Source: Desulfovibrio sp. (GTDB lineage: Bacteria > Desulfobacterota > Desulfovibrionia > Desulfovibrionales > Desulfovibrionaceae). From it: 43,869 nucleotides of DNA. The notes under the pieces are model-generated. The model was not told where the DNA came from. It saw only the letters and a list, made by a program, of their open reading frames with translations, and searched no databases. A program made the position numbers and the translations under genes. Below are positions 22,698 to 23,953 of the stretch, piece by piece. Where the stretch lies: assembly GCA_031287575.1 (NCBI GenBank), contig JAITSV010000075.1:1-43869 (forward strand). Reading direction: 5' to 3'. The first letter of the stretch is position 1; the number at the start of each line of letters is the position of its first letter.

Positions 22698-22951
22698 GCG
22701 GCGGCGGACTCTCCTGTGGCGGGGCAAGGCGTGTTGGACGTGCGGTACGCAGGAACCACTACCCCATACTCCGGCCGTTGACAAAGTCCGCTTTGGGGCG
22801 CTTTCGGCGACCCCCTGGCCCCCGTTTTCCGGGTTTTCGGTCGCGCGAGCACATTTTTTTCAGCAGTGGTACTATCCGAGACCACTTTTTATACGCTCTA
22901 TCATGTTGAAAAACATGCTATACAAGCACTTCCTGATTTCCTGTTCATCCA
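22698..22951. other. Intergenic region with two short hairpins upstream of the riboswitch promoter
   Basis: Contains AGTGGT/ACCACT (22865-22886, ten-base loop, followed by TTTTT) and the inverted repeat CATGTT-GAAA-AACATG (22902-22917). Both lie between murJ and the plus-strand promoter and could be operator or leader structures for either direction. Confidence 0.45.
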
Positions 22952-22980
22952 TTGACAACTGTGCACTCAACCGCTAGATA
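22952..22980 (+). promoter_or_regulatory. Sigma-70 promoter of the riboswitch unit
   Basis: TTGACA (22952-22957), 17-base spacer, TAGATA (22975-22980). The expected start of transcription, near 22987, is just before the riboswitch. Confidence 0.8.
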
Positions 22981-22987
22981 TGCCCCA

Positions 22988-23116
22988 TTCATGGAGAGAG
23001 GCGCGAGGGTACGGCCCTGTGACCGCCCGGCAACCTGCCCTGACGTGACGCCGTCGGTCGGGACAAGGTGCCAACACCGACCGTGTAGCGCACGGGATCA
23101 TGATCGCGGGCTTGCG
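22988..23116 (+). ncRNA. SAM-I (S-box) riboswitch aptamer
   Basis: All signature blocks occur in order. GAGAGGCGCGAGGG and GGCCC give P2b (GGG-tacgg-CCC). GTGA with the earlier GA fits the kink-turn. CCCGGCAACC forms the conserved core. AAGGTGCCAA follows after a P3 stem-loop. P4 is CCGTG-tagcg-CACGG. P1 is the weaker TCATG (22989-22993) / CATGA. Inner P2a is GCG/CGC. S-box RNAs bind S-adenosylmethionine and usually turn transcription off when SAM is high. The assignment is by eye; a covariance search would settle it. Confidence 0.88.
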
Positions 23117-23121
23117 GCGTC

Positions 23122-23153
23122 GGCCTCTCCATGCGAGGGGCCTTTTCTGTTTT
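23122..23153 (+). terminator. Expression-platform terminator of the SAM riboswitch
   Basis: GGCCTCTC (23122-23129), loop CATGC, GAGGGGCC (23135-23142): eight pairs including one G-U, followed by TTTTCTGTTTT. Position right after the aptamer fits an OFF switch. Confidence 0.85.
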
Positions 23154-23185
23154 GGGGGCATCGTCCGGACGCTGGAGCCGTGCGG

Positions 23186-23236
23186 TGCATGTGGGTGGAT
23201 TTCAGGCCAATTGCGCACCCACAGAAAAAAAATGCA
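23186..23236 (+). promoter_or_regulatory. Second structured leader element after the riboswitch
   Basis: TGCAT followed by GTGGGTG (23186-23197) pairs with CACCCAC (23216-23222) and, after an A-rich bulge with eight A, with ATGCA (23232-23236). It lies in the roughly 240-base leader between the terminator and the ORF. Role unknown; could affect translation or RNA stability. Confidence 0.4.
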
Positions 23237-23394
23237 GCTAACAGGCCGTTGCGCCACGGGGGCCGCCACACACCCAGCCGGAACATCCGGCGGGACGGCG
23301 GACAGCCCAAGGGTGCACGGTGGTCCGCCGGCCCAGCCCCCGGCGGATTGACCACGCGAAGCCCGGACGGCTTTGCGGAAAAAAGGGAGACACG

Positions 23395-23661
23395 ATGAAG
23401 GATTTTCTGGAGAAGTTGCAGCCCGTTGGCGAGTGTGTGATCTACTACCTCTACCACAACGAGGACGACCCCATGCCTACCTGCTGGTCCGACCCGCTGG
23501 AACTCATGGGGGACATGACTCGCCTGCAACTCACCGACGCACAGATGCGCGAACTGCGCGACATCGTGAGCGAGGAAATCCGCAGCGAAGGCCCCGAGGC
23601 GGTCTGGAAGGGGCGCACCCTGCGCAAGAACATCATCCATTCCTGCGGCTACCTGGTGTAG
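23395..23661 (+). CDS. Unknown 88-aa protein under SAM riboswitch control
   Basis: Starts at ATG 23395 with GGGAG upstream (MKDFLEKLQPVGECVIYYLYH). Residues 25-45 contain PMPTCWSDPLELMGDM, then a helical part (TDAQMRELRDIVSEEIRSEG), and the end is IIHSCGYLV. Cysteines at about 14, 30 and 84. No membrane segment and no family recognised. It is the only gene between the riboswitch promoter and the terminator at 23843, so it should be repressed when S-adenosylmethionine is plentiful. That pattern predicts a role in methionine/SAM supply, sulfur metabolism or a methylation-linked process; this is inference only. Confidence 0.8.
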   Translation: MKDFLEKLQPVGECVIYYLYHNEDDPMPTCWSDPLELMGDMTRLQLTDAQMRELRDIVSEEIRSEGPEAVWKGRTLRKNIIHSCGYLV

Positions 23662-23842
23662 CCGGGCACCTTCGGCGGGCGCGTCCGGCAGCGCGCCCTG
23701 CCCGAAACGGTGCCCGCTCCGGCACCTGACCCGGTACCCGACCCGGCCTTCGACGCATCGCTTTCCGGGCCACTCCCCCGCCCCGCGTGCCCGCGCGCCC
23801 CGGCGGCCCACATGGCCCGGCACACATGACGACAAACACAAT

Positions 23843-23873
23843 GCCCCCGTCGGGAAACCGGCGGGGGCGTTTC
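23843..23873 (+). terminator. Intrinsic terminator ending the riboswitch-controlled transcript
   Basis: 11-bp stem GCCCCCGTCGG / CCGGCGGGGGC (one G-U) with GAAA loop, then GTTTCTG. May also serve the convergent HAD gene. Confidence 0.8.
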
Positions 23874-23953
23874 TGTTGATGACAGGGCGTGCGTGAGAGG
23901 GCATGCGCCAACGGCAAGAGCGGATGTTCACGGCTCGATGGCAATCCGCCCCG

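Follow-up and report, generated by a model that had tools for sequence, protein, structure and literature searches.

The window, the whole 43,869-nt stretch of Desulfovibrio sp. DNA analysed here, carries on its forward strand a SAM-I (S-box) riboswitch, a transcription attenuator, a second conserved RNA element and an open reading frame (ORF) of 88 amino acids. The aptamer lies at 22986-23106 and matches Rfam family RF00162 along the full model (positions 1-108 of 108) with 61.9 bits. The E-value of 4e-12 over the whole window rules out a chance S-box, and RF00162 is the sole match when the whole window is scanned at gathering thresholds (44.4 bits for this family). The first-pass annotation, which had described an S-box aptamer here and named RF00162 as the model to search with, is thus borne out. 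It had also read a promoter upstream, TTGACA-N17-TAGATA at 22952-22980 (+ strand). The -35 hexamer (22952-22957) matches perfectly and stands at the correct distance of 17 nt. The -10 is poor, with TAGATA agreeing with TATAAT at 3 of 6 positions, and a promoter scan reported no sites for this region. As a promoter, the sequence is only half convincing.

Behind the aptamer, pattern scanning and folding both place a terminator hairpin, GGCCTCTC-CATGC-GAGGGGCC, at 23122-23142 (+ strand), with a T-rich tract at 23143-23153. Within 22850-23950 the pattern scan gave three sites, this hairpin among them, where shuffles averaged 0.7, in agreement with the attenuator and T run described earlier. The single ORF runs on the same strand from an ATG at 23395 to a stop at 23661 (stop included), and a Shine-Dalgarno-like GGGAG, read from the sequence at 23385-23389, stands five bases before the ATG. 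A final terminator had been proposed as well; on reading, a terminator-like hairpin does follow the ORF at 23843-23868 (+ strand) and precedes TTTCTGTT, but the terminator scan listed this hairpin on the minus strand only. The overall observation of a SAM-I leader, an attenuator and an ORF is confirmed. The single-riboswitch account did overlook the second RNA element, which lies between the attenuator and the ORF.

The 88-aa protein family and other SAM-I targets

Judged by curated Pfam and NCBIfam cut-offs or by a clear relative in the PDB, the 88-aa protein belongs to no known family. Its best E-values were 0.1 in Pfam and 0.22 in NCBIfam; 15 family members reached 0.045 at best in Pfam, none at cut-off, a PDB profile search gave a best E of 0.086, and a PHROGs search returned nothing useful. 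A structure predicted from 10 sequences (mean pLDDT 86.8, pTM 0.78) has two long C-terminal helices, and Foldseek of this model against the PDB gave a best E of 4.2. In the 15-sequence alignment, 21 columns are invariant. Among the eight congeners (genus g1), the 28 pairs differ 21, 0 and 110 times at the three codon positions; this dominance of third positions indicates a real protein under selection. The ORFs of genera g8 and g22, with approximately 29-35% amino-acid difference, likewise have a third-position excess. Codon-position bias together with 35 homologues excludes a non-coding frame. A longer form from a GTG at 23320 (113 aa) is open in some congeners, yet the ATG is where alignment with the homologues starts and is itself preceded by GGGAG, and this form was rejected.

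The small protein was found in 35 of 288 Desulfovibrionaceae genomes (8 in g1, 17 in g8 and 10 in g22). A search of the phylum recovered it in one of 297 genomes, the window's own, with none outside the family, and a search of viral contigs found none. Each of the 35 genes follows a SAM-I aptamer on the same strand, at a distance of 130-327 nt, and in a separate named collection the nine true homologue loci are also behind SAM-I. The tenth match in that collection (L056) is integrase-like, has no SAM-I and was discarded as false. Searches by genus found both features in 17 of 17 g8 genomes and SAM-I in 10 of 10 g22 genomes. It had been asked of this locus whether relatives of the ORF also follow S-box RNAs; they do, and since the other SAM-I copies in the family include those ahead of metK operons and metX, the sequence linkage supports the small gene as a probable part of the SAM or sulfur response. 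A single SAM-I match was obtained in the window's genome (4.19 Mb in 84 contigs, 99.75% complete). In this genome, panC is the immediate upstream neighbour of metK, and the search gave no SAM-I at that locus. The notion of a riboswitch-only regulon of one gene holds as far as this single SAM-I goes, but the leader also contains a SAM-II-like element.

Altogether, SAM-I occurs in 49 copies in 44 of the 288 genomes. The 14 copies not associated with the small protein precede panC-metK (five), metX (four), an orphan ORF of ~149 aa (three) and an ADP-ribosylglycohydrolase gene (two). At the panC-metK loci (L057-L061; genera g37, g3 and g44), SAM-I and a terminator are followed by panC and metK, with a DUF502 gene between them in four of the five, so that pantothenate and SAM synthesis genes have a common leader. 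Four g22 genomes (L067, L068, L153, L154) have their second SAM-I ahead of metX, a name that is our own reading, as Pfam shows only an alpha/beta hydrolase fold. A terminator follows SAM-I in 45 of 47 leaders tested, and the two exceptions are metX leaders (G504 and G505 contributed no metX leader to this set); metX control in those two may therefore be translational. One genome (G060) has two near-identical SAM-I copies (L065, L066) near the ends of two contigs, each before an ADP-ribosylglycohydrolase gene, and one of these loci has an integrase-like ORF upstream.

Predicted attenuation by the SAM-I aptamer

The window's leader can form a second, competing structure. In the unconstrained fold, CAUGGAGAG at 22990-22998 (+ strand), which overlaps the 5' strand of P1 and J1/2 of the aptamer, pairs with CUCUCCAUG at 23125-23133 (+ strand), within the 5' arm and loop of the terminator. 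This antiterminator has a pairing probability of 0.955-1.0, and the terminator 0.0. Forcing the SAM-I P1 raises the terminator to 0.99-1.0; in a fold begun at the first SAM-I base, the same constraint takes it from 0.11 to 1.0. In the usual S-box, the antiterminator is built from the 3' strand of P1. The leader is otherwise a typical member of RF00162, with a full-length match and a terminator attenuator, and metK operons and metX are among the Desulfovibrionaceae targets of the class. It departs from the class in using the P1 5' strand and J1/2 for the antiterminator and in having an orphan gene as its target.

A terminator and an antiterminator that exclude one another and are linked through P1 were found in the folds of the window and of all eight congeners. 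In the congener leaders (8/8), the terminator rises from 0.04-0.57 unconstrained to 0.97-1.0 with P1 forced. Three g22 leaders go from 0.0 to 0.72-0.79, and five further leaders (G021, G507, G108 and the two G060 copies) change modestly. For 29 of the 45 terminator-bearing leaders, the fold model keeps the terminator dominant (0.74-0.99) whether P1 is forced or not; all these values come from equilibrium folds, which leave out tertiary contacts and kinetics. The SAM-I attenuation step is well supported as a prediction from the leader sequences.

A second, SAM-II-like element

The overlooked element occupies 23188-23248 (+ strand) and is delineated by covariation, weak Rfam matches and R1, a covariance model built here from 18 sequences that include the window's. 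Its hairpin, the element's own P1, pairs 23191-23197 with 23216-23222. GATTT (23198-23202) opens the loop, TTGC (23211-23214) lies at its end, and GCTAA follows at 23237-23241. A proposed pseudoknot helix, P2, would join GGCC at 23205-23208 to GGCC at 23244-23247. We recognised these SAM-II-like features in a conserved stretch of the leaders downstream of the terminator, prior to any scan; as a pattern, GATTT...TTGC...GCTAA then proved present in 34 of the 35 small-protein leaders, and the leader of G021 is without the element. The same 34 leaders have the P1 hairpin with GAUUU at the loop start, UUGC at the loop end and a 3' GCUAA. Among the 18 distinct rows of our alignment (A3), GAUUU, UU and GCUAA are invariant.

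Conservation within the genus is sharply focused on this element. Among the eight congeners, 35 of 288 leader positions vary and none of the 61 within the element does (hypergeometric 1.3e-4). The longest invariant run in these leaders is 23187-23249 (63 nt), and 39 of 20,000 random placements give a run that long. P1 shows changes on both sides at four pairs, with 89.6% of cells paired, and the covariation score of the whole structure is 0.310, where shuffles give 0.134 and none of 500 reaches the observed value; it also exceeds all six slid versions. Counted over 26 distinct rows, paired cells number 163 of 182 in P1 (shuffle mean 138) and 56 of 104 in P2 (46.8). None of 5,000 shuffles reaches either value, though related sequences can beat such shuffles by kinship, without any structure. 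P2 pairing is uneven: four of four pairs form in the window and three of four in several g22 rows, and the helix is weak in g8, with one to three of four. Its strands vary from GGCC with GGCC in the window to AGC with GCU in most g22 rows and GAC with GUC in G096 and G504.

On the window element, R1 scores 64.7 bits, a value to which the window's own sequence contributes as part of the model. Over the 288 genomes, R1 gave 35 matches, 34 of them between SAM-I and the small ORF and one behind the SAM-I of G013, a genome of a fourth genus (g14). Searched directly at the g14 loci, R1 matches all three (34.0, 34.0 and 29.2 bits), with G054 at 34 and G013 at 29.2; on the panC, metX and g29 SAM-I leaders it gave no match. 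At these g14 loci (L062, L063, L064), the tandem of SAM-I and SAM-II-like element stands ahead of the ~149-aa orphan ORF, which has no Pfam match. The ~149-aa family showed no relation to the small-protein family when the two were compared. Another R1 match, in G201 of a different family (L150 1501-1557, 29.4 bits), lies between unrelated genes and lacks UUGC. No SAM-I was found nearby, no SAM-II match appeared at E up to 5, and we take this site as chance, so that 29 bits alone is no proof. The match in G013 at 29.2 bits counts only by virtue of its place directly behind SAM-I and of the scores of 34 in two congeners.

Scanned with Rfam at E up to 10, the region 23170-23270 matched the two SAM-II families and nothing else: RF01726 (SAM-II long loop; 15.9 bits, E 0.53) and RF00521 (SAM_alpha; 12.9 bits, E 0.55). 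Both scores are well below gathering (44 and 36 bits, respectively). These E-values span 4227 families, and by our arithmetic the chance for either named SAM-II family is approximately ten-thousandfold smaller per family. Of eight relatives searched with an E limit of 5, two gave RF00521 (L008, 20.5 bits; L006, 19.2 bits), amid unrelated families of lower E that are taken as chance. In g14, the G054 element (L063) reaches 27.6 bits against RF00521 with E 7.5e-5, again under the gathering score of 36. Our main argument for SAM-II ancestry is the chain that leads from the window element through R1 to g14 and from there to RF00521, and we consider the second element a divergent SAM-II-like RNA, with homology supported at the level of sequence comparison. 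Like SAM-II, it has one hairpin whose loop starts with GAUUU and ends with UUGC plus one base, and, further downstream, a GCUAA strand that could make a pseudoknot with the loop. Unlike SAM-II, it scores below gathering, and its start codon lies 24-159 nt past GCUAA across leaders rather than directly behind it. SAM-II is described as commonest in Alpha-, Beta- and Gammaproteobacteria in the accessible text of PMC2704228, and the element here occurs in Desulfovibrionaceae.

No U tract was seen behind the second element. As it lacks a terminator, its predicted action is post-transcriptional and most probably at translation. In a fold used as a proxy for the bound state, accessibility of the ribosome site was unchanged across 37 leaders (mean -0.003), with changes greater than 0.1 downward in two and upward in three. 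The distance between GCUAA and the start codon is shortest in G413, where the start codon lies 24 nt after the start of GCUAA and the predicted aptamer would come to lie nearly on top of the ribosome site. In g8 leaders (for example L045, L046 and L073-L075), the AAUGCCC that follows GCUAA has its complement in a conserved GGGCAUU, which lies in the loop of a hairpin some 40 nt upstream of the start codon. A script found this complementarity in 15 of 17 g8 leaders, and by reading G412 also has AAUGCCC. All three g14 leaders have competing hairpins at the ribosome site, of which the non-sequestering one is the stabler (-11.8 to -12.8 against -4.8 to -5.0 kcal/mol).

A precedent for such an arrangement is the marine SAM-II/SAM-V "bi-mechanism" tandem, which in the available text of PMC9481103 also joins two SAM aptamer classes with a terminator on the first and none on the second. 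Control of a terminator by the first aptamer was likewise found in the folds of the window and its congeners. The marine tandem differs in its classes, here SAM-I followed by a SAM-II-like element, and in its target, here an orphan small protein; translational action of the second element is here a prediction. By analogy with that tandem, the second element most likely represses post-transcriptionally.

The tandem leader as a probable two-stage switch

We think it probable that the locus is a one-gene unit in which the leader checks SAM twice, as a two-stage OFF switch over a new small-protein family. The SAM-I aptamer would begin close to the expected transcript start. With SAM bound, its P1 would form and take up CAUGGAGAG, the terminator at 23122-23142 would form, and the gene would be off. 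When SAM is scarce, CAUGGAGAG would instead pair with CUCUCCAUG, and RNA polymerase would read through. The resulting RNA would carry the SAM-II-like H-type pseudoknot aptamer, whose homology is supported and whose output is proposed, and upon recovery of SAM this element may shut off messages already made. The expected outcome is that the cell makes the protein, small and mostly helical, only when SAM or methionine runs short. Such a protein may help restore the SAM supply or adapt the cell to SAM shortage.

A simpler account, which we regard as unlikely, is that only SAM-I works and the second element is a structured part of the leader serving RNA stability or protein binding, its likeness to SAM-II having arisen by convergence. 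All scores against the SAM-II families are below the Rfam cut-off, the proxy fold produced no change at the ribosome site, and the G021 leader does without the element, as this account would expect. Convergence fits poorly with the RF00521 match of its relative in G054, where E is 7.5e-5 over 4227 families, with three blocks that share order and topology with the RF00521 consensus, and with an element directly behind SAM-I in three of three g14 genomes ahead of a different gene. Less probable still is a two-input gate, in which the second element binds a related ligand such as S-adenosylhomocysteine or another SAM derivative. Its divergence from the Rfam SAM-II models, enough to fall below their cut-offs, would leave room for another ligand, and a SAM/SAH class with an H-type pseudoknot exists according to the accessible text of PMC7367207; the uridine and adenine blocks with SAM-II contacts reported in that of PMC11508383 are kept, however, in a residue mapping that is our own. 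In Listeria, SAM-I leaders that have been terminated work in trans, and the RNA could in principle be the product here too, but this is very improbable for a leader whose ORF is under protein selection (the 21, 0 and 110 differences in congeners and the third-position excess in g8 and g22).

Mixed-class SAM tandems of the kind proposed in our two-stage reading have been listed before. The survey in PMC9481103 (Infernal, RefSeq 80) counts, in its available text, 149 SAM-II/SAM-V tandems, seven of SAM-II then SAM-I/IV and two of SAM-I/IV then SAM-II; it names SAM-I/IV, not SAM-I. The whole word "Desulfo" has no occurrences in that text, a search that would not catch "Desulfovibrio". For Oleidesulfovibrio alaskensis G20, the accessible portion of PMC11124144 (2024) describes a lone SAM riboswitch before the hypothetical gene RS11395. 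Shared with the present case is a single SAM-I in the genome, placed before a hypothetical gene; the difference is that a second element or a protein family is not described in that portion. We found no report of the SAM-I and SAM-II-like arrangement in the open-access literature, taken in available form and exclusive of supplements, which does not prove absence.

The 2004 reconstruction in PMC545781 lists, in the text available, S-boxes for Geobacter and Desulfuromonas and not for Desulfovibrio, and the accessible text of PMC4239095 names SahR as the regulator of SAM-cycle genes in D. alaskensis and further delta-proteobacteria. The same part of PMC545781 also reports no apparent process of homocysteine making in Desulfovibrio species, which would attach a concrete physiological question to genes of this family that respond to SAM shortage.

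A broader reading is possible, and we hold it only tentatively. The leader would be a two-stage sensor of mixed class, with SAM-I working at transcription and, after it, a divergent SAM-II branch working on the completed message. It would serve a previously unrecognised family of small proteins for times of SAM shortage, whose role would be to restore the supply of SAM or methionine; the second, unrelated orphan family in another genus would then make it a portable module for SAM-shortage genes. If true, this would place a divergent SAM-II branch in Desulfovibrionaceae and extend the few mixed SAM tandems listed so far by the order SAM-I/SAM-II. It would also leave two protein families whose sole known property is their expected switch-on under SAM shortage. 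A leader called as one riboswitch by a standard scan can hide a second, and here SAM-I and the second, SAM-II-like element together would tie an unstudied protein family to methionine and SAM metabolism.
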